Shown here piece after piece: positions 28,505-49,170 of a DNA stretch of 64,000 bases. The position numbers and the translations under genes are program-made. Source of the DNA: Geminicoccaceae bacterium (GTDB lineage: Bacteria; Pseudomonadota; Alphaproteobacteria; Geminicoccales; Geminicoccaceae); contig JANQNY010000016.1 of assembly GCA_028279345.1 (NCBI GenBank), positions 1 through 64,000 on the forward strand, given 5' to 3'. A model generated the notes under the pieces. The model saw only the letters and a list, made by a program, of their open reading frames with translations, was not told where the DNA came from and did no database searches. Positions within the stretch are counted from its first letter, which is position 1, and every line of letters begins with the position of its first letter.

Positions 28505-28698
28505 GCGCCAATCTCGCACGCGGCGATGGCAACGGCTGTCCCAAAAGGGATGCATCCGTTCCGGTTGAAACACTAGGGCTGGGGATCAGAGCAGATGACC
28601 ACAGGATTCCGGTTCCGATTGGATGAGGAACCGGGGTCACGTCACCGCCAAAAGACTGAGGAGAAGTATCGCAGCTTCACCGCGGGCGTCGTTCGCGT

Positions 28699-28998
28699 TT
28701 AGTGCATTCGGTGGTGCAAGTTGCTGAGGATCCAAATTGTCCCACCTATGAGTATTACCATGATCAGCGTGGCGAAGAGAATCAATTCCAGATCTTCGCG
28801 CTTTTGTTTGGAAGTACTGATGTGCAAGAAGAAGTGTGCGTGGACGACGACCTGAACAAAAGCACACACGCCTATCACGGCTGCTGCCCGCATGCCCGCA
28901 AGCGCCTCGGTCCAAACAACCCAAAAAGGAATAGCCGTCAGCAATAGGGCGAGGATGAATCCCATGACGTATTGCGCGTGTTCGGAGTGTTTTTCCAT
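28699..28998 (-). CDS. cyoD: cytochrome bo3 ubiquinol oxidase subunit IV
   Basis: 99-residue CyoD, the small subunit assisting Cu-B assembly in cytochrome bo3. Three hydrophobic helices; family pieces are YVMGFILALLLTAIPFWVVW, FVQVVVHAHFFLHIS and ATLIMVILIGGTIWI. ATG 28998 overlaps the cyoC stop by one base (TGATG); the longer frame to 29043 lies inside cyoC. Last gene of cyoABCD. Composition here is less G/C-rich than in neighbouring housekeeping genes. Confidence 0.93.
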   Translation of the reverse strand: MEKHSEHAQYVMGFILALLLTAIPFWVVWTEALAGMRAAAVIGVCAFVQVVVHAHFFLHISTSKQKREDLELILFATLIMVILIGGTIWILSNLHHRMH

Positions 28999-29633
28999 CA
29001 GAGTAAGCCTCCAAGGAACACCACTGAGAAAATGCCGATCCAAATGATATCGAGGAAATGCCAGTAGAGTGCCCAGACCATCAGGCGCTGTTTGATCACG
29101 CCGCGAAGTGACTGCATCCCAATTTGGTTAATCAGCACGAGGATCCAGATCAGCCCCACCGTGATGTGCAGCCCGTGCAGGCCCACCAGCGCCGTGAAGG
29201 ACGACATCCAAGCGCTACGCATCGGTGGCGATCCCGCTGCGAACATCTCGACGAAGTCGCGGATCTCAAGAGCGAGGAAAACCGCACCGAAGAAGAAGGT
29301 GAGCGCGAGCCATCTGCCGAGACTGCGCGGGGGAACCGGCGCGTCGGAGACATGGTCGTATTTCAGTGCGAGGCTAGCCATCCCGCAGGTGAGGCTGCTG
29401 AGCAGCAGGGCTGCGGTCTGCAGAGCGACACTGCCGAGGTCGAACAGCTCTTTCGGCCCTGGACCGCCGGCGGTCGCGTCGCGCATCACCACGTAGGTGC
29501 CGAAGAGCATCCCGAACAGCACGAGATCGCTCATCAAGAACACCCAAAACCCGAAGACGAACGTCTCGCTCTTCGCGTGGTCTGGGCCGTGAGCCTCGCC
29601 GAGATTGAGCCCGGGGTAGAGCTGCATCGTCAT
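28998..29633 (-). CDS. cyoC: cytochrome bo3 ubiquinol oxidase subunit III
   Basis: 211-residue heme-copper oxidase subunit III with five to six transmembrane helices, starting MTMQLYPGLNLGEAHGPDHA. Family landmarks: FGFWVFLMSDLVLFGMLFGT, TALVGLHGLHITVGLIWI and ALYWHFLDIIWIGIFSVVFL. It stabilises the proton-pumping core in the cytoplasmic membrane. ATGA overlap with cyoB upstream and TGATG with cyoD downstream. Confidence 0.95.
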   Translation of the reverse strand: MTMQLYPGLNLGEAHGPDHAKSETFVFGFWVFLMSDLVLFGMLFGTYVVMRDATAGGPGPKELFDLGSVALQTAALLLSSLTCGMASLALKYDHVSDAPVPPRSLGRWLALTFFFGAVFLALEIRDFVEMFAAGSPPMRSAWMSSFTALVGLHGLHITVGLIWILVLINQIGMQSLRGVIKQRLMVWALYWHFLDIIWIGIFSVVFLGGLL

Positions 29634-31711
29634 TCGGCGGCCACCATGTCGGGAGCGGCGCGGCCATGATTGAGCGCCGAGATCTCCTCGTCACGCGTGA
29701 CGCCCCTGTCCTGACGCGCGCTTTCACGCCATTTTCGGTCTTCGCGGGCAACGTCGTCGGCGGGAATGGTGATCTCGGTTGGCGGATAGAAGGACCCAAC
29801 CACGATCGCGCCGACCAATAGCGCCAGTGCGACGATGGCCAGCCACCAGAGCCACCATACCATTGCAAAGCCGAGCAAGGTCGTCGTCACGAGCACAACG
29901 AAACCGATCGACGTCTTGGCGGGCATCGTGATCGGCTCATAGTGGTCGAGCGGCGCGTAGACGTCGCCGCGTTCCTTGGCCGCCGCAAATGCGTCGACCC
30001 CGGTGACCTGGGGGCGTACGGCGAAGTTCCACGGCGGTGGCGGCGCCGACGTCCACCATTCGAGCGTTCGTCCATCCCAGGGATCGCCCAGGGGTGTGGC
30101 CAGATGTCGTCGATAGACGATGCTCACGACGATCGTCAGCACGACCGTGGTGAGGGCGAGCAGGATGATGAGCGAGCCGTAGAATGCGACCTGCATCAGG
30201 GGCTCGTAGCTCGGGTCTTGGAAGCTCGCCGAGCGGCGCGGCATGCCCATCAGGCCGAGCCCATAGAGCGGAAAGAAGGTCACAGAAAACCCGACGATCC
30301 AGAGGACGGCCGCCAGCTTGCCAAGCCCTTCATGGAGGCGAAATCCGAACACCTTGGGAAACCAGTAGTGGATCGCCGCCAAGATCCCGAACAAGACGCC
30401 GGGGATAATCACGTTGTGGAAATGGCCGACGAGAAACAGCGAATTGTGTACCTGGAAGTCGATGCTCGGGTTCGCCAGCATGATACCCGAGAGCCCGCCG
30501 ATGACAAAAAGAAAGAAAAACCCGGTCATGTAGACGATCGGCACGGTCATCCGAATTCGCCCAAGATTGAGCGTGGCCATCCAATCGTAGATCTTCACGC
30601 CGGTTGGGATGGCAATCAGCAATGTGGCGATGCCAAAGGCGGCGTTGATGGTTGCGCTCTGGCCCATCGTGAAGAAATGATGAACCCAGACCATGAAAGA
30701 GATGACCGCGATGCACAGCGTCGCGCCGACCAGTGTTTCGTAGCCGTAGAGCCGTTTGGCCGCGAAGGTCGCGGAAATCTCCGAATACACACCAAAAGCA
30801 GGAAGAATAAGAATGTAGACTTCCGGATGGCCAAACATCCAGAATAGGTTGGCGTAGACCATCATGTTGCCGCCCAGATCGTTCGTGAAGAAATGGAAGT
30901 CCAGATAACGATCAAGTGCCTGAAGTGCGGCTGCAGCAGTCAATGGAGGAAGTGCAAAGACGACCAAGATTGAGGTGACAAGCGCTGTCCAGCAAAAAAG
31001 AGGCATGCGCATCAGCGTCATGCCCGGCGCGCGCTCTTTGTAGATCGTGACAGCAAAGTTGAGGCCAGTCAGTGTTGATCCTACCCCAGATAATAATATG
31101 GCCCAAATCCAATAGTCCGGGCCAACGCCTGGGCTAAACACAGCACCCGTGTAGGGCGGGTATGCGGTCCATCCGCCGGTGGTGAACTCACCTACGACCA
31201 ACGAGATCATCAACAACGCCGCGCCCGTTGCGGTGAGGGCCAGGCTGATTTGATTCAGCACGGGGAAGGCCATGTCCCGCGCACCGATCTGCAGCGGCAC
31301 AACGAAGTTCATCAGGCCAAAGATGAACGGCATGGCGACGAAGAAAATCATGATCGTGCCATGGGTGCTGAAGAGCTGGCCGAAGTGATCGGGGTCGAGC
31401 GGGCCGCCGCCGAGCGCCGCCGATTGATTCCAGCGCATGACGACGCCTTCGATGACGCCGCGCGCGAGCATGACCAAAGCCAGCGCCATGTACATGACGC
31501 CGATCCGCTTGTGATCGACGCTGAAGAGCCAGTCCCGGAACAGCGGCGTCCACAGCCGAAAAACCTTGAGAACCAAAATCGCCGCGACGCTGCCAACGAT
31601 GACCAGACCTGCAGCGCCACTGTCTACCATGTTGTTGATCGTGGCGTCCTCAAACACGTGGAGAACGGCCAGTGAGTCGACGCTGAGCCGGCCGAACAAT
31701 GCATCAGCCAT
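29630..31711 (-). CDS. cyoB: cytochrome bo3 ubiquinol oxidase subunit I
   Basis: 693-residue catalytic subunit of the bo3-type quinol oxidase, which reduces O2 to water with ubiquinol and pumps protons. Cu-B/heme ligands are present: His in FSTHGTIMIFF (low-spin heme), WMFGHPEVYILI (Cu-B His-Tyr pair and proton-gate Glu), VWVHHFFTMG (two Cu-B His) and GHFHNVIIPGV (heme His pair). The K-channel Lys (TGVKIYDW) and D-channel Asp (LQIGARDMAF) are kept. Of the quinol-site residues, Arg, His and Gln are conserved, while the position of E. coli Asp75 is Glu (RGVIEGVVMR). It overlaps cyoA by a few bases and cyoC by ATGA. Confidence 0.96.
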   Translation of the reverse strand: MADALFGRLSVDSLAVLHVFEDATINNMVDSGAAGLVIVGSVAAILVLKVFRLWTPLFRDWLFSVDHKRIGVMYMALALVMLARGVIEGVVMRWNQSAALGGGPLDPDHFGQLFSTHGTIMIFFVAMPFIFGLMNFVVPLQIGARDMAFPVLNQISLALTATGAALLMISLVVGEFTTGGWTAYPPYTGAVFSPGVGPDYWIWAILLSGVGSTLTGLNFAVTIYKERAPGMTLMRMPLFCWTALVTSILVVFALPPLTAAAALQALDRYLDFHFFTNDLGGNMMVYANLFWMFGHPEVYILILPAFGVYSEISATFAAKRLYGYETLVGATLCIAVISFMVWVHHFFTMGQSATINAAFGIATLLIAIPTGVKIYDWMATLNLGRIRMTVPIVYMTGFFFLFVIGGLSGIMLANPSIDFQVHNSLFLVGHFHNVIIPGVLFGILAAIHYWFPKVFGFRLHEGLGKLAAVLWIVGFSVTFFPLYGLGLMGMPRRSASFQDPSYEPLMQVAFYGSLIILLALTTVVLTIVVSIVYRRHLATPLGDPWDGRTLEWWTSAPPPPWNFAVRPQVTGVDAFAAAKERGDVYAPLDHYEPITMPAKTSIGFVVLVTTTLLGFAMVWWLWWLAIVALALLVGAIVVGSFYPPTEITIPADDVAREDRKWRESARQDRGVTRDEEISALNHGRAAPDMVAAE

Positions 31712-32756
31712 GATCGGCGTGCTCCATGGGGCCGCAGCCGGCCGCGCCAGCGCCGTGCATCACCATCGGCTCTTCCGGAAGCTGTGATCGCTCTGGGTCG
31801 TAGGTGTCGCTGCCGGGCTGGTGTGACGGGTCCAGCGCGGCACCGGTGTGGTAGCGGGCCATGATCCGACCGAAGAGATCTGGCGAAGGCGCGCTGAGGT
31901 GTATCGGACCGTCGGTCTCGCTGCCGATCGCCTTGCCCGTCGTTGAGAGATCGCCGCGGATACCGATCCGCGCGTAGGTTGCGTCGGTGAGGCTTAGGTC
32001 CGACTCACGGACAGCCTGCACCCAATCGAGCCAGTCCGCTTTGGGGACCGCTCGAACCGGAAAGCGCTGCTCAGGAAAACCGTCGCCGTTGTATTGCGTA
32101 TTCTCGCCGCGGGTCTCGCCCTCTTCGCTGGCCTTGAAGTGCAGCGCCGTGCGCATCCCCGGCATGGCGTAGATCTGCCCGGCCAGGGCCGAAATGCGGA
32201 AGCTCTGCATCACCGTGTCGGTCGTAAGTTCCATCGCGACGGGACGGCCCACCGGCACCACAAGCTCACCGACCGTCGCGATCCCTTCGTTCGGAAAAAT
32301 GAACAGCCACTTCCAGTCCAGCCCTACGGCTTGCACGCAGACGGGGTCGCCGGGGAGCGGCTTGTAGGGATCGAGCCGATGCGTCGCAGTCCAAAGCTGT
32401 GCCGCGAGAGCAATCACGATGACAATCGGCACGCCCCAGATGAAGACCTCGAGCTTCGGGTTGTACGCCGAATGCGGACGATAGGTGGCGCGGGCCGATC
32501 GGCGATAGCGGATCAGGATGATCGGCGTGAAAAGAAAAACCGGCAGGATTGCGATGCTCGTCCAGGCAATGACTCGGAAAAAATGATCGCGTTGATGCTC
32601 CGCAATGGGGCCGAGCGGACTCAAAAACGTGTGCGACGGCTGCGCAAGTGTATCGGCAGCGAAACTCGATGCTGTAAATGCAAAAAAGAGGACAAGCCCC
32701 ACGGCTTTTGCGGCTTTAGCTCGAGCGGCTCGATCGTTCACTCGGCTGACTAACAT
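31704..32756 (-). CDS. cyoA: cytochrome bo3 ubiquinol oxidase subunit II
   Basis: 350-residue subunit II, without the Cu-A cysteines, as expected for quinol oxidases. From ATG 32756 the product has an N-terminal hydrophobic signal (GLVLFFAFTASSFAADTLAQ), two membrane helices (VIAWTSIAILPVFLFTPIIL and VFIWGVPIVIVIALAAQLW), then a periplasmic cupredoxin domain (VGLDWKWLFIFPNEGIATV, MELTTDTVMQSFRISALAGQ, YAMPGMRT). Unlike E. coli CyoA, no lipobox cysteine is seen. The C-terminus ends in a Gly/His-rich tail (HGAGAAGCGPMEHADHG). The frame reaches 32948 but the extra part is not protein-like. First gene of cyoABCD. Confidence 0.94.
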   Translation of the reverse strand: MLVSRVNDRAARAKAAKAVGLVLFFAFTASSFAADTLAQPSHTFLSPLGPIAEHQRDHFFRVIAWTSIAILPVFLFTPIILIRYRRSARATYRPHSAYNPKLEVFIWGVPIVIVIALAAQLWTATHRLDPYKPLPGDPVCVQAVGLDWKWLFIFPNEGIATVGELVVPVGRPVAMELTTDTVMQSFRISALAGQIYAMPGMRTALHFKASEEGETRGENTQYNGDGFPEQRFPVRAVPKADWLDWVQAVRESDLSLTDATYARIGIRGDLSTTGKAIGSETDGPIHLSAPSPDLFGRIMARYHTGAALDPSHQPGSDTYDPERSQLPEEPMVMHGAGAAGCGPMEHADHG

Positions 32757-44096: not shown

Positions 44097-45608
44097 ATGC
44101 TCGACGGCGTCCTCGCGGGTCTCGGCACTGCCTTCTCGTTCTACAACATCCTCATGGTGGTTGCCGGCTGTCTGATCGGCACCCTGATCGGCATGCTCCC
44201 GGGGCTCGGGCCCATGTCGATCATCGCCATCATGATCCCCGTGGCGATCCAGCTTGGTGACCCGTCCAGCGCGCTGATCATGCTCGCGGGCGTCTACTAT
44301 GGCGCCATCTTTGGCGGCTCGACCTCGTCGATTCTCATCAACGCGCCCGGCGTGGCCGGCACGGTTGCGACCTCGTTCGACGGCTATCCGATGGCGATGC
44401 GGGGCGAGGCCGGCAAGGCGCTCACCATCGCCGCGGTCGCCTCCTTCGCCGGGGGTACGGTGGGCGCGGTCCTCTTGTTTCTCTTCGCACCCGCCCTGTC
44501 ATCAGTGGCGGTGCTCTTCTGGTCCGCCGAGTACTTCGCGTTGATGCTCGTGGGCCTCTCGGCGATCGCTGCCTTTGCCGGCCGCGGCAAGGTGGTGAAG
44601 GCGCTCTTGATGACCGTCTTCGGGCTCATGCTGGCCACCGTCGGCGAGAGTGCCCTCTTCAACGCGCCACGCTTCACCATGGGCCTATTAGACCTGCAGA
44701 GCGGGTTCAACTTCGTCACCTTGGCCATGGCGCTCTTTGCGCTCCCTGAGGCAATCCACCTGATCCTCGATCCGTCCCGCGGTGCGGCGGCCAGATCGGG
44801 CGGCACGGACATCAAGAACCTGCGGATCACGCGAGCAGAGGCCCGCCGCATCGCACCGGTCGTGGGCCGTCAGTCGATCCAGGGCTTTCTCATCGGCGTG
44901 ATGCCCGGCGCGGGCGCGACGCTGGCTTCGTTCCTGGGCTATGCGGTCGAGCGCAACCTGGCGAAGGACGACGAGCGGGGCGAGTTCGGCAAGGGCTCGA
45001 TCAAGGGCCTTGCTGCGCCCGAGACCGCCAACAACGCCGCCTGCACGGGCTCCTTCGTGCCACTCCTGACCCTCGGCATCCCGGGCTCTGGCACCACCGC
45101 GATCCTCTTGGGCGCACTCATCGCGCTCAATGTCAATCCGGGCCCGCGGCTGATGATCGATCGTCCGGAGGTCTTCTGGGCGGTCATCATCTCCATGTAT
45201 CTCGGCAACATCGTGCTCTTGGTGCTCAACCTGCCGCTGATCCCCTACATCGCCAAGCTGCTGGCGGTGCCCAGGAACTTCCTCATCCCGTTCATCCTCT
45301 TCTTCGCCATGGCCGGCGCCTATATCGGCCAGAACAACTCGACCGAGCTCTTGATCCTCGTTGGCCTCGGCGTGATCGCGACCATCCTGCGCTTCGCGGA
45401 CTACCCGCTGCCGCCACTCCTGATCGGCTTCATCCTCGGACCGATGCTTGAGAACAACTTCAGTCGCGCCATGCTCAATGCCGACGGCATCAGCTTTCTG
45501 TGGGAACGGCCAGGGACGCTGGCGCTGGTCATCCTGGGCATCATCCTCGTGCTACTGCCGTACATAGGCCAGTTCCGCGCCCCGCGCAGGGCGGCGCAAG
45601 CGGACTGA
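44097..45608 (+). CDS. tctA: tripartite tricarboxylate transporter large membrane subunit
   Basis: 503-residue permease with about 12 helices. TctA hallmarks: GTLIGMLPGLGPMSIIAIMI, YYGAIFGGSTSSILINAPG, QSIQGFLIGVMPGAGATLAS, ETANNAACTGSFVPLLTLGI and PGSGTTAILLGAL. The paired glycine-proline loops form the transport core. Ion-driven import of a carboxylate delivered by TctC is expected. Last gene of tctCBA; beyond it base composition drops sharply at the island. Confidence 0.94.
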   Translation: MLDGVLAGLGTAFSFYNILMVVAGCLIGTLIGMLPGLGPMSIIAIMIPVAIQLGDPSSALIMLAGVYYGAIFGGSTSSILINAPGVAGTVATSFDGYPMAMRGEAGKALTIAAVASFAGGTVGAVLLFLFAPALSSVAVLFWSAEYFALMLVGLSAIAAFAGRGKVVKALLMTVFGLMLATVGESALFNAPRFTMGLLDLQSGFNFVTLAMALFALPEAIHLILDPSRGAAARSGGTDIKNLRITRAEARRIAPVVGRQSIQGFLIGVMPGAGATLASFLGYAVERNLAKDDERGEFGKGSIKGLAAPETANNAACTGSFVPLLTLGIPGSGTTAILLGALIALNVNPGPRLMIDRPEVFWAVIISMYLGNIVLLVLNLPLIPYIAKLLAVPRNFLIPFILFFAMAGAYIGQNNSTELLILVGLGVIATILRFADYPLPPLLIGFILGPMLENNFSRAMLNADGISFLWERPGTLALVILGIILVLLPYIGQFRAPRRAAQAD

Positions 45609-45793
45609 CGCGGGCGCGGCCCCGGCCCTTCCTTGGACAACCGGCCTCGCCTATCCCACGATCTTCCTTCTTAATCCTCATGTCCGACAAACCGATGTCG
45701 GCACGTCACATATGGCACAGGAGATTGACATGCCATCAACAACGAGATAATCGCCAAAAGCGTGGTTTATTTCGCGGATCGTATCGTATTCCG

Positions 45794-45822
45794 TTGAATG
45801 TAGCCGCGTATGTAAATATATT
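45794..45822 (+). promoter_or_regulatory. predicted promoter of island operon
   Basis: TTGAAT (45794-45799) and TATATT (45817-45822) are separated by exactly 17 bases, near-consensus for sigma-70. The start point would fall near 45829, leaving about 20 bases of leader before the ATG at 45848. A second candidate, TTGACA at 45725 with GATAAT 15 bases on, lies further upstream. Confidence 0.6.
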
Positions 45823-45847
45823 AACAATTAGCGTGACTGGAAACAGG

Positions 45848-46135
45848 ATGACCTCCGACAATCAAACAATTAGTTATCTTGATGTCATAGGTTCCGAAGA
45901 GGATATTGCGGATATCCAAGATCTTGTTAAGAATTTTAAAGATGTAAAAATTAGTGATTCCGATGTTTTTTCACCAACTGACAGTGAATTTAGCGGCGCG
46001 GAGGTCGTAATCGGTTTAAAGATTGTTGTCCTTTGTATCAGTGGAGCGGCCGCCACCGTCAAGCTTTTGAATGAATTGCACAGATACCGAAACCGATCAC
46101 CTAGTTTATTTGTGAGGCCGAACGAAACGAATTGA
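45848..46135 (+). CDS. small single-TM protein, possibly EACC1-like (island)
   Basis: 95-residue protein of unrecognised family. Layout: a short N-terminal strand (TISYLDVIGSEED), an acidic helix (about 17-30, EEDIADIQDLVKNF), a linker, one hydrophobic helix (about 53-71, VVIGLKIVVLCISGAAATV) and a basic tail ending in a strand (RSPSLFVR). This order resembles the small EACC1 constant components described next to conflict-system effectors, but the resemblance is by eye only. ATG 45848 follows GGAAACAGG and a near-consensus promoter. It precedes the 579-residue HExxH protein by 65 bases, same strand, same A/T-rich composition. Function unknown; a membrane-linked partner of the larger protein is inferred. 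Confidence 0.7.
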   Translation: MTSDNQTISYLDVIGSEEDIADIQDLVKNFKDVKISDSDVFSPTDSEFSGAEVVIGLKIVVLCISGAAATVKLLNELHRYRNRSPSLFVRPNETN

Positions 46136-46200
46136 ATCAACCGGTGGTTGAGAATTTCCATTCTCTAGTTCTACGCTCAACGTTGTAGATTGTTCAGCCG

Positions 46201-47940
46201 ATGCCTGCTTGGGCGCAACTTGATACGGCCACACTCTGTATCCGGTGGGATTATGGTTCCCTCACGCGACCGAACGGATATCCGCAACGCTTTGATTTTT
46301 CCGCCCCCGACCACAAATTACATGCGAACCTCTTTTACTTGGACGATTCTTCGTGTTCCGAATATCTGTGTCAGATCGATGACTACGAGCAGCGTCTTCG
46401 AAGCGGCTTTCTTTGCGCAATGCAATGGCATGAGCAGCGACATTTCGTAGATTTTGTACTCACGAATTTCGGAGCAAGTCGCGTCCGCGCATACCTTGAG
46501 ATGTATAGCAGTTTTGATCACCTCCTTGGTGCACTGTGCGATGTGGGTCCTGATGTGGGATTCCCATTGAGTGTGTACGGGGACGAGGTAAGGCGATCTC
46601 GCCTAGGTGCGAGAGAACCAAGTGAACGTCTCGCCGACATTGCACGTTACGTGAAATTAAGAGCTACGTTTTTTGACGGCGATCATTACGAGCTCAGGGG
46701 TCCGAGCGGTTCAGTCTATTTTGGTGGTCCCGCGCAACTTGAAGCGTTGGCATTCTATGCACAGTTCGGGGTGACACAAAGCGTCTTTGGTCTCAACTTC
46801 GCTCGTGAGGTCTGGCACCGCACACCGTCATCTTCGCGCTCCGCTCCGATAAATAGATCAATTGAATCACTCTTCAGAATTTTTGGCATAGAATTTATTA
46901 CAGAAACTTCTAGCGGAGACTTCCTTGATGTCAGATTCATTCACGCGCTGTTGTTGGGTTCTCTTTTTTGCACACGAAAGGATTCATCTACGGAGATGGA
47001 CGAGCACGAAATGGCGCGCTATTCGCCGTCAAGAAGGCTGTTGAAACTTCTTGAGTTCTTTCACGCTGCTGGTTTTGCAGGACGTGTCGAGAGACCACTT
47101 GAAGCTTGGGAAAGGGTGGAGGACGCGAGTCTCAAGCTTTGGGGCCGAACTTGTACTGAAGAGATGCAAGAAGATGTAAAGTTTGAGGGCGAGTTTTTAC
47201 AGGAGGTGGTGAAACGCGATCAGACAAGGTCGTACGCACTCGATGTGTTTCGTGATTTTCACCGCATGAGGTGTCTGCTTTTGAATTGCCTTATTGAAGA
47301 TCCTTCGAGCGTTGTCGAGCCAAGTCGTTATTATGAAGAGACGCGTTTGAAGGTGCGGCCATCTCAGGTTCTTTGCTTTAGGTCGCCTCTCAGCGGAGAT
47401 TTGGATGCTCAATCGGTCCTGTTTTGGTCTTTGGACATGTTTGGAGAACCTAGTGCGTCGGCACTGTTAGTTGATCGGTGCCCCGACGAAGGAACTATTG
47501 CAGATAATTTTATAGAGCCCGTTTGCAAAGAAAGCTGGAAACTGGTAACGCTGAAAATGGCACCTCTTGCGAGGCTGTCGCAATCTGGCCGCCGTGTTAG
47601 AAGTCTTTTGGATCGTGAAATATTGGAAGCGGAAGGGCACCTACAGCAGTTGGGTCTTAAACCGATGTACGAACCATTGTATCGGTATCCGATAACTGAT
47701 CGAAGTGCCGCACTTTATTTTGAGATGGTGAACTTAGATACGATGAATTGCGATTTCACCGGCGAAGAGTTGGTGTCGGAACAAGCAATTCTTATTTCAT
47801 CGTGGGATTTTGTTGCCTTTCGAAGATTGCGTGACCATGCAATTCTTGGGCGACGTTCTGCGAACATTATTAGGGATATGCAAAATGGTGAATTCGGGCT
47901 GTGGATGACTCACCGGAGGTATTGGGAGCTTGTTCAGTAA
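46201..47940 (+). CDS. unknown protein with HExxH zincin signature (island)
   Basis: 579-residue protein of no recognised family, no signal peptide and no transmembrane helix, so probably cytosolic. Its most telling feature is WHEQRH (HExxH: H77, E78, H81) followed after 18 residues by E100 (AYLEMY), the spacing of gluzincin metallopeptidases. The segment HEQRHFVDFVLTNFGASRVR also looks like helical active-site packing. The rest is mixed alpha/beta and rich in aromatic residues and Arg, without P-loop or repeats. Codon usage and A/T-richness match the small upstream gene and differ from all neighbours. The start ATG 46201 has no good ribosome-binding site, so coupling or another start is possible. 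Peptidase activity is a prediction only. Confidence 0.75.
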   Translation: MPAWAQLDTATLCIRWDYGSLTRPNGYPQRFDFSAPDHKLHANLFYLDDSSCSEYLCQIDDYEQRLRSGFLCAMQWHEQRHFVDFVLTNFGASRVRAYLEMYSSFDHLLGALCDVGPDVGFPLSVYGDEVRRSRLGAREPSERLADIARYVKLRATFFDGDHYELRGPSGSVYFGGPAQLEALAFYAQFGVTQSVFGLNFAREVWHRTPSSSRSAPINRSIESLFRIFGIEFITETSSGDFLDVRFIHALLLGSLFCTRKDSSTEMDEHEMARYSPSRRLLKLLEFFHAAGFAGRVERPLEAWERVEDASLKLWGRTCTEEMQEDVKFEGEFLQEVVKRDQTRSYALDVFRDFHRMRCLLLNCLIEDPSSVVEPSRYYEETRLKVRPSQVLCFRSPLSGDLDAQSVLFWSLDMFGEPSASALLVDRCPDEGTIADNFIEPVCKESWKLVTLKMAPLARLSQSGRRVRSLLDREILEAEGHLQQLGLKPMYEPLYRYPITDRSAALYFEMVNLDTMNCDFTGEELVSEQAILISSWDFVAFRRLRDHAILGRRSANIIRDMQNGEFGLWMTHRRYWELVQ

Positions 47941-47984
47941 GTCTGTTTTGAATGTCGGTATTATTGAGTTAGGAGGTAAGGAGA

Positions 47985-48053
47985 TTGTATTACGTGAATA
48001 TGGGACAGCGTATAGGGTCGGACGCAGTAACTGAGATGGAGGGCCGGCATTAG
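47985..48053 (+). CDS. possible 22-codon ORF with strong RBS (island)
   Basis: TTG 47985 to TAG 48053 encodes 22 residues beginning YYVNMGQRIGSD. It is preceded by AGGAGGTAAGGAG, by far the strongest ribosome-binding sequence in the island. The peptide resembles no known family and could be chance, a decayed gene start or a small peptide. Low confidence. Confidence 0.25.
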   Translation: MYYVNMGQRIGSDAVTEMEGRH

Positions 48054-48168
48054 GGCCAAAGAAAATTGATCAAGCAATAGGCGTTTTTTTCCGGCACTTT
48101 ATAATTGTGCACTGAAGTATCTGATTAGGAATATCTGTCGACGTTCTCCAGCGCTGCGGAGTCTGGCG

Positions 48169-49170
48169 CTACCCGCCGGTGACGCTCATGTGCCGAGCGA
48201 CGGCCGGCCGCTTGCGGCGGCGGTCGATGACGAAGTCGTGGCCCTTGGGCTTGCGGGTGATGCCTTCTCGGATGGCAGCGATGAGGGCTGCGTCGTCGGC
48301 GTGGGCGCGCAGGGGCGCCCTCAGGTCGGCCGCGTCCTCCTGACCCAGGCACATGTACATGGTGCCGGTACAGGTGACGCGCACGCGGTTGCAGCTCTCG
48401 CAGAAATTGTGGCTCAGCGGCGTGATGAAGCCGAGCCGGCCGCCGGTCTCCTCGATCCGCACGTAGCGCGCCGGCCCGCCGGTCGAGTAGGGGATATCCG
48501 TCAGTCGCCACCGCTGTTCGAGGTCGGCGCGGACACGCGAGAGAGGCAGGTACTGATCGGTCCGGTCCTCGTCGATCTCACCCAAGGGCATCGTCTCGAT
48601 GAGGGTGAGGTCGTAACCCTCCGCACCGCACCAGGTGATCATCCGGTCCAGCTCGTGCTCGTTCACGCCCTTGAGCGCCACGGCGTTGATCTTGATCTTG
48701 AGCCCGGCACGCTTGGCGGCCTCGATCCCGCTGGTCACCTTGTGGAAGTCGCCCCAGCGGGTGATCTGGCGAAAGGTCTGTGCGTCAAGCGTGTCGAGCG
48801 AGACGTTGATGCGTCTTACGCCCGCGGCGACCAGCGCGTCGGCGTGGCGCTCGAGCTGGCTGCCATTGGTGGTCATGGTCAGCTCGTCGAGGGCGCCGCT
48901 GGTGACATGCCGACCGATCGCTTGGACCAATTGCATGATGTTGCGACGGACCAGCGGCTCTCCGCCTGTGAGCCGGATCTTGCGCACACCGAGCGCGATG
49001 AACGCCCCGGCGAGGCGCTCCAGCTCCTCCAACGTGAGCAGCTCACGCTTCGGCAGAAACGTCATGTGCTCGGCCATGCAGTAGCCGCAGCGGAAATCGC
49101 AGCGGTCGGTGACCGAGAGACGGACGTAGGTGATACGCCGCTGGAACGGATCGACGAGCGGGGTTGTCAA
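48169..49170 (-). CDS. moaA: GTP 3',8-cyclase (molybdenum cofactor synthesis)
   Basis: 333-residue radical-SAM enzyme of the first step of molybdopterin synthesis (GTP to 3',8-cH2GTP, together with MoaC). The N-terminal [4Fe-4S] motif CDFRCGYC (C24, C28, C31) and the C-terminal second cluster ([14 protein letters not shown]) are both intact, as is the functional C-terminal Gly-Gly (SVTGG). Its position at the right margin of the A/T-rich island marks the return to chromosomal sequence. It shares purpose with modABC and the molybdoenzyme at the right edge. Confidence 0.95.

Follow-up and report, generated by a model that had tools for sequence, protein, structure and literature searches.

Between tctA and moaA, the window (the whole 64,000-nucleotide stretch of DNA that was analysed) contains an AT-rich island, located by composition profile at 45750..48150 and assigned to no strand. 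G+C falls from ~0.65 to 0.43–0.51 between ~45.6 and 48.1 kb, and then returns sharply. Two forward-strand open reading frames (ORFs) occupy this island: P0002 (45848..46135, +), a 95-residue protein with one hydrophobic segment, which is EACC1-like by layout, and, separated from it by 65 bases, P0001 (46201..47940, +), a 579-residue HExxH protein whose family is absent from the libraries scanned.

Over the two genes (~2.1 kb) G+C is 0.475 (47.5%), against a window mean of 65.5%. When 310 segments of 2,090 bases were taken in steps of 200 across the 64 kb (mean G+C 0.655, sd 0.039), only one was as low as the two-gene stretch (0.473, 45801–47890), and this is the island itself; the lowest segment clear of both genes had a G+C of 0.593. 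GC3 is 0.39 in P0002 and 0.47 in P0001, versus 0.885 in tctA and 0.883 in moaA. The abrupt compositional drop, the shared foreign codon use, and the two ORFs, all reported in the original prediction, were thereby borne out. The same is not true of a near-consensus promoter, which was rejected: the sequence TTGAAT-N17-TATATT is present (45794..45822, +, 9/12 matches), but at a frequency expected by chance, with three sites of such quality in 45500–48300 versus 2.5 (sd 1.5) in shuffles. A proposed comparison with an empty tctA–moaA site was also abandoned, as three tctA orthologues with extended flanks have no moaA within ~4–8 kb downstream, and the junction itself is thus not conserved there.

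A conserved, sporadic gene pair

When 84,980 species, each represented by one genome, were scanned for the motif, 39 loci were obtained. Of these, 31 proved unrelated and were set aside, including five (L116, L117, L113, L104 and L124) with E-values of 0.0015–0.0062 in the 39-sequence set, whose ORFs resemble the family in little beyond the motif itself. The eight relatives of P0001 that were found belong to the Alphaproteobacteria, Acidobacteria and Actinomycetota. Seven are full length, at 21–26% identity, and the broken large gene of locus L112 was excluded from the large-protein alignment, A1. The loose motif HExRHFxD matched in 38 of 398 genomes, and among the 30 loci inspected (eight matches without a locus being left out) only the window held a family member, the others scoring E 0.24 or worse. 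No family member was found by single-sequence search in 95 other near relatives (0/95), nor by profile search in 189 other genomes of the same class (0/189), where the best few first-look candidates were scored per genome and absences are not exhaustive; these two genome sets overlap. A marginal match in genome G1120 (61 positions, E 9.7e-4) was not counted as a relative.

A P0002 homologue lies directly upstream of the large gene in the window and in 7/8 relatives, where the two genes either overlap, by 4 to 23 bases, or stand 2 to 9 bases apart; the Kineococcus copy (L102) has no such partner upstream. The partner alignment, A2, covers all eight partners, including that of L112. A leave-one-out profile of the other seven partners finds P0002 at E = 3.3e-5 among 1358 ORFs. 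The other seven partners were found in their own loci at 8.5e-10 to 8e-35, those of L112 and L115 being helped by their closeness to each other, and each of the eight full-length large proteins was recovered at E 1.9e-85 or better. Together, the upstream homologues and their confirmation by leave-one-out profiles establish the pair as a conserved, sporadic module, rare and widely scattered. It is constrained at the protein level: the proteins of the closest pair of copies are 72% and 76% identical, and dN is 0.18 for the partner and, over 131 large-gene codons, 0.17, the synonymous sites having diverged too far for dS to be calculated. The original prediction, of a foreign two-gene module, has therefore held up. 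Rather than never co-occurring, or forming a core, vertically inherited pair of matching composition, the homologues are paired, sporadically distributed and, in the window, of foreign G+C.

Copies of the module are often found in mobile-looking places. The L106 copy adjoins hsdM and hsdS (type I restriction genes); a tRNA-Ser, an integrase and a subtilase lie beside that of L111; and the L088 copy lies ~380 bases after a tRNA-Arg. At L112, transposase-bearing DNA was seen by eye within the large gene, which a transposon seems to have interrupted. At all eight loci the flanks are richer in G+C than the large gene or what is left of it, although the difference at L088 is only 0.005. L102, L115 and L123 showed no clear mobile or defence neighbour, the Pfam scan of the relatives' neighbours having covered 20 ORFs, none from L102. 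No relative of P0001 was found in viral contigs, plasmids or phages, nor of P0002 in plasmids, nor, with the Bradyrhizobium relative as query, in plasmids. Profile A1 picked out 98 stretches in viral contigs, and a P0001 peptide scan five in genome contigs, none of which were confirmed. The only phage match to P0002, in Pseudomonas phage Achelous (two records, E 0.5), was rejected.

Features of the two proteins

P0001 contains the motif WHEQRHFVD (residues 76–84; 46426..46452, +), in which HEQRH, residues 77–81, provides two candidate zinc ligands, H77 and H81, and a candidate catalytic residue, E78. A candidate third ligand, E181, was recognised from the alignment and an AlphaFold2 model, and ends the stretch GGPAQLE (residues 175–181; 46723..46743, +). 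H77, E78, H81 and E181 are intact in 8/8 full-length members of alignment A1, the conservation of the first three being biased because relatives were found with an HExxH-containing motif. G175, G176 and E181, which lie outside the search pattern, are also invariant in 8/8. The C-terminal half (residues ~300–579; 47098..47937, +) is conserved and alignable throughout, with W303, G315, D325, R357, P387 and C517 invariant in 8/8; in four relatives it bears a CxxC...CxxC arrangement, absent from P0001.

Modelled by AlphaFold2 with the alignment (pLDDT 76.5, pTM 0.81; pLDDT 33.5 from the single sequence), P0001 has the HExxH in the middle of helix 62–87, and E181 near the start of helix 176–196. 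Foldseek gave no fold match at E <= 0.001. GPCR bundles topped the VIA-align list, with Z as high as 5.6, and were put down to common helical packing. Rows 45 and 48 of this list, leukotriene A4 hydrolase and aminopeptidase N, align model residues 3–294 and 3–293 with 3fts 267–441 and 9cao 351–531, ranges which we take to hold the catalytic site, at a Z of 3.7, below unrelated GPCR rows. The shared HExxH and invariant downstream E181 suggest a gluzincin-like metallopeptidase. Gluzincins of the M1 type, such as leukotriene A4 hydrolase and aminopeptidase N, likewise place a Glu-bearing helix after the HExxH helix, but the Glu of P0001 is ~100 residues downstream of the HExxH, and no sequence similarity to gluzincins was reported for the large proteins.

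The original prediction placed P0001 in no known family, and neither it nor P0002 was matched convincingly by any entry of Pfam, NCBIfam, PADLOC or PHROGs. PADLOC 2.0.0 returned nothing for P0001 and, for P0002, the only small partner scanned, solely Cas10_Id (E 0.022), taken as chance. Across the eight large proteins, the only Pfam match was VMAP-M8 (1/8, E 0.031), too weak to use, and a PADLOC orphan methyltransferase (1/8, E 0.0057) was not a relevant model. Weak AFP_2 (0.084), PHROGs (0.041–0.33) and galU (0.28) matches were attributed to chance. Against PDB sequences, profile A1 reached a best E of 0.58, while P0002 and profile A2 matched designed repeat proteins (best E 0.0051) and designed helices (best E 0.059), respectively, both rejected. 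No paper on the family of either protein was found by title or abstract in the open literature searched.

The hydrophobic segment of P0002 (residues 53–71; 46004..46060, +) has a Kyte-Doolittle mean of 2.31 and includes a small-residue patch, SGAAAT. Best 19-mer means range from 1.36 to 2.31 across the eight partners, and reach the transmembrane threshold of 1.6 in four; hydropathy is below this value in the other four, which leaves it uncertain whether the helix is truly transmembrane. P0002 has a shorter C-terminus than the partners in the seven relatives (117–132 aa, with starts as in alignment A2). Single-partner matches to the NCBIfam models PRK06763 (F0F1 ATP synthase alpha, E 0.0005, lower than any EACC1 match, and unrelated) and PRK12681 (CysB-type, E 0.1), and to SSU0593 (E 0.13), were taken as chance, as were weak Pfam matches to Pro_Al_protease and FAD_binding_4. 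A membrane-linked small protein with a peptidase-like partner is a plausible description of the pair.

A possible conflict module and its alternatives

EACC1 (Pfam PF19953) is described by Kaur et al. (2020, eLife 9:e52696, PMC7159879) as the invariable membrane part of System 4, a conflict system of two genes that they predict. As there, a small 5′ gene directly precedes a larger 3′ gene, in the window and in 7/8 relatives; the small protein has one hydrophobic segment, a putative helix that contains a small-residue patch and is flanked by short alpha/beta ends, the larger has a peptidase-like N-terminus, and distribution is sporadic. The systems differ in that the 3′ protein here has an HExxH instead of a caspase or cyclase, and a conserved C-terminal half where that of EACC1 systems is a swappable, variable effector. 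Among Pfam families, EACC1 alone was hit by more than one partner (2/8, E 0.036 and 0.13), and the best score, 14.5 bits at E 0.036, falls short of the PF19953 cut-off of 23.6 bits, which 0/8 passed. By hhalign, the eight-partner profile scored 24.2 (26.0 without P0002) against a profile of three EACC1 proteins, versus a maximum of 17.1 in 100 column shuffles, but the probability is only 12–20%, and 2/100 shuffles of 10-column blocks also reach 26.0. Searches for EACC1 proteins in plasmids and viral contigs led nowhere. The small protein at most weakly resembles EACC1. This qualifies the original claim of an undescribed system: the family has no name in the libraries, but its layout resembles a two-gene prediction already in print. 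The peptide-processing Metallopeptidase/FxSxx pairs that the same paper links with VMAP and FtsH ternary systems also set a zincin-like peptidase gene beside a small-protein gene; there, however, the small protein is a precursor that is cleaved and diverges rapidly, unlike the conserved hydrophobic helix here, and inspection by eye found no such C-terminal motif in the partner alignment.

The reading preferred, at a probability of roughly 0.4, is a horizontally acquired, membrane-associated two-gene conflict module, probably anti-phage or abortive-infection in nature, formed from a tethered sensor and a metallopeptidase. The 5′ gene would encode a small protein whose single helix, flanked by short alpha/beta ends, sits in the membrane or on its surface; this protein may anchor or sense in an EACC1-like manner. 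The first ~300 residues of P0001 would form a gluzincin-like zinc peptidase, with H77, H81 and E181 as ligands and E78 as base, and the conserved C-terminal half, of ~280 residues, may bind the partner or substrate. On sensing membrane or invader stress, the small protein would release or activate the peptidase, which could then cleave itself or a protein of the host or phage.

A related reading, somewhat unlikely on our estimate, retains the tethered sensor in a mobile immune module that has so far gone unrecognised and shares no ancestry with EACC1, with a new HExxH zinc peptidase family whose conserved C-terminal half would recognise substrate, spread across at least three bacterial phyla. 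Conversely, the pair could be a true but very divergent EACC1 system, in which an HExxH peptidase domain replaces the usual caspase; gene order, partner size, the putative hydrophobic helix with its patch and the sub-threshold matches agree with this. It is nonetheless unlikely, given that all eight partners fall below the Pfam cut-off, that Pfam reports no caspase or cNMP cyclase domain in the eight large proteins, that the C-terminal half is conserved rather than variable, and that shuffles preserving local composition (10-column blocks) reach the profile score of 26.0 in 2/100.

The small gene coming first, its tight coupling or overlap in 7/8 relatives, the mobile contexts of some copies and the sporadic distribution would also suit a toxin-antitoxin-like stability gene on mobile islands, with the HExxH protein a toxic peptidase restrained by its small upstream partner. 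This too is improbable, since a toxin of 570–630 aa would be unusual, the partner carries a hydrophobic segment, Pfam reports no DNA-binding domain in any of the eight (the CysB-named NCBIfam match being confined to one), no relative occurs in the plasmids or phages searched, and the L102 copy lacks a partner. Least probable is a catalytically dead structural or scaffold protein, with a vestigial HExxH, in a module acting by binding. In the related vWA-MoxR systems, most caspase-like and nearly all trypsin-like domains at the effector position are inactive, according to Kaur et al. (2020, PMC7159879), and the fold search offers no confirmation of a zincin; against this stands the intact quartet of putative active-site residues, with the search bias that affects its first three.

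The analysis defines a family of proteins and a conserved module of two genes to which none of the scans against Pfam, NCBIfam, PADLOC and PHROGs gave a name, and the small size of the pair (~2.1 kb) makes it directly testable in laboratory strains. If the module is EACC1-like, the caspase of such predicted immune modules would be replaceable by a metal-dependent peptidase domain.

An AT-rich island holding two genes

Between tctA (44097–45608, + strand) and moaA (48169–49170, − strand) the G+C content of the window falls abruptly and then recovers, as the original prediction had described. The island contains two genes on the same strand, separated by 65 bases: one for P0002, a 95-residue protein with one hydrophobic segment (45848–46135, +), and one for P0001, a 579-residue HExxH protein (46201–47940, +). 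Their combined G+C is 47.5%, whereas the window averages 65.5% (sd 3.9; 310 sliding windows of 2,090 bases); of these sliding windows only the one on the island drops as far, and none clear of both genes falls below 59.3%. The foreign composition claimed for both was also apparent from GC3, at 0.39 (P0002) and 0.47 (P0001) vs 0.88 in tctA and moaA. The proposed near-consensus promoter fared worse, such sites occurring at chance frequency in 45500–48300, an interval in which no terminator-like site was detected. ARAGORN found no tRNA genes in the window, and the genes flanking the island are ordinary. As moaA is absent within ~4–8 kb downstream of three extended tctA orthologues (genomes G005, G001 and G016), an empty tctA–moaA site could not be demonstrated.

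Several further features of the surrounding sequence were recorded. A second, milder G+C dip spans 28601–32490; it reaches ~0.59–0.60 in 2,090-base windows, and nothing else beyond the island goes lower. Antisense within tctA (45141–45268, −) lies a match to the Rfam family Cis8_sRNA (RF02646, named for Ruegeria), at 95.7 bits vs a cut-off of 58. This genome has nine tctA-like genes at E ≤ 1e-60, a number exceeded in only three of the 31 family genomes searched.

Relatives of P0001 and their small partners

P0001 was predicted to belong to no known family, and it has no match in Pfam, NCBIfam or PADLOC at E up to 10, and one weak match in PHROGs (E 0.13). Library matches of P0002 are all weak (AFP_2, 0.084; Cas10_Id, 0.022; two PHROGs, best 0.041). 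Neither protein was found in 95 other near relatives or matched among the plasmids searched; P0001 was likewise missing from the phages searched and from 384 other genomes of the same class (a set overlapping with the 95), and a phage match of P0002 at E 0.5 was rejected. Exact peptide scans of viral contigs and of genome_contigs (one genome per species, 84,980 species) yielded no relative of P0001. Translated into a degenerate codon pattern, the motif W-H-E-x-[RS]-H-F-x-D matched once in viral contigs, which was read as chance, and at 39 stretches of genome_contigs. By phmmer, eight of the 39 encode clear relatives, with E-values between 7.8e-13 and 3.4e-49 in this small 39-sequence set. These come from Mesorhizobium carmichaelinearum (L088), Kineococcus indalonis (L102), an Acidobacteriia MAG (L106), Edaphobacter (L111), Acidisphaera (L112, broken), Bradyrhizobium uaiense (L115), an Acidimicrobiales MAG (L122) and Sphingomonas kyeonggiensis (L123), which we take to belong to the phyla that their names indicate. 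Seven are full length, with 21–26% identity to P0001. Because the pattern was the search filter, the conservation of WHExRHFxD reflects ascertainment, and eight is a lower bound. A family profile detected no additional member in the same class (189 other genomes) or in the Bradyrhizobium family (227 others); in the Edaphobacter class (214 others) one genome gave a marginal 61-position match, which was left out of the count. Within the reach of these searches, the family is rare and sporadic.

The expectation that both genes would co-occur in other genomes was confirmed: in 7/8 relatives a small same-strand ORF, coding for a single hydrophobic segment, sits immediately upstream of the large gene, overlapping it by 4 bases (L088, L106, L111) or 23 (L115), or separated from it by 2 (L123), 7 (L122) or 9 (L112). 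Leave-one-out profiles, in which each partner was sought in its own locus by a profile built without it (1358 ORFs), recovered P0002 at E 3.3e-5 and its seven counterparts at E between 8.5e-10 and 8e-35, although L112 and L115, being 72% identical, easily detect each other. For this closest pair, dN is 0.18 in the partner and 0.17 over 131 codons of the large gene, with synonymous sites too divergent for computing dS, which indicates protein-level constraint on both genes. The Kineococcus copy (L102:3869–5602, −) has no such partner, and its product may act alone or with another gene. The window copy may itself be slightly or partly decayed, since P0002 ends earlier than its counterparts (117–132 residues) and the intergenic gap, 65 bases within 46133–46200, is wider than at the other loci, which range from an overlap to a gap of 9.

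In all eight loci the large gene is lower in G+C than its own flanks, by 0.005 (L088) to 0.115 (L112, a fragment). L088 starts ~380 bases past a tRNA-Arg; L111 has a tRNA-Ser and a tyrosine integrase nearby; and in L112, which also carries an IS110 transposase, the large gene is split by what looks, on inspection by eye, like transposase DNA. L122 adjoins a protein with a GmrSD C-terminal domain. The suggested co-location with defence genes held in part: L106 adjoins hsdM and hsdS of a type I restriction system, on the opposite strand, and among the few ORFs scanned in L115 and L123, which include a UvrD-type helicase two genes off and RF3, respectively, there is no clear mobile or defence neighbour. 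The neighbouring ORFs scanned came from loci other than L102. An S8 subtilase gene (L111:4977–6395, −) directly adjoins the Edaphobacter module, on an apparent tRNA-Ser/integrase island.

Predicted architecture and possible function

In layout the small proteins run from strand–helix through a linker to a single hydrophobic helix that carries small residues, and then a strand. This resembles EACC1, the constant membrane component of a predicted two-gene conflict system (Kaur 2020; Pfam PF19953). EACC1 is the sole Pfam family to recur among the eight partners (L112, E 0.036; L123, E 0.13), all such matches falling under the cut-off, and one partner has a lower E-value (0.0005) for the unrelated NCBIfam family PRK06763. 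The partner profile scored 24.2 against three EACC1 proteins (L034, L035, L137), and 26.0 without P0002; 100 column shuffles gave at most 17.1, and reversal gave 8.4; without P0002, shuffles within three blocks reach at most 16.5, and those within 10-column blocks attain 26.0 in 2/100. The EACC1 system has a caspase and a variable C-terminus; no caspase family was found by Pfam in the large proteins, and their C-terminal half is conserved. As the Pfam matches of the partners also stay under the cut-off, the pair is not assigned to EACC1, and is best called EACC1-like.

Outside the search motif, the residues invariant in 8/8 large proteins are M1, D8, L87, G91, R96, P122, D161, G175, G176, E181, Q188, L255, R279, W303, G315, D325, R357, P368, P387, P455, G463, E473 and C517. 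A C-terminal CxxC...CxxC is present in L102, L106, L111 and L122 and, save C517, missing in P0001, L088, L115 and L123. An AlphaFold2 model (pLDDT 76.5, pTM 0.81 with the eight-sequence alignment; pLDDT 33.5 from the single sequence) places HExxH in the middle of helix 62–87 and E181 in helix 176–196, after a hairpin (163–174). Gluzincins require this order, an HExxH helix followed by a Glu-bearing helix; the large protein may be such an enzyme. Searches of PDB and viral models with Foldseek yielded nothing at E ≤ 0.001. GPCR helix bundles top the VIA-align list, with Z as high as 5.6, and the M1 gluzincins leukotriene A4 hydrolase (rank 45; Z 3.7, rmsd 4.8, 135 residues) and aminopeptidase N (rank 48; Z 3.7, rmsd 4.2, 145 residues) appear only below them, a lead to the fold and not proof.

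With regard to the original prediction of a membrane-linked small protein and a peptidase effector, possibly in defence, the pairing, the protein-level constraint, the foreign composition and the HExxH with its invariant Glu stand as observations; membrane insertion, zinc binding, proteolysis and a defence role are inferred. The same pair could be read as a toxin–antitoxin-like stability pair or as a true, divergent EACC1 system, or the large protein as a catalytically dead scaffold, readings that we consider less likely. Most likely, the two genes form a module in which the small protein, tethered to the membrane, would act as a sensor controlling the large protein as a metallopeptidase effector, which would act against phage or in self-sacrifice.
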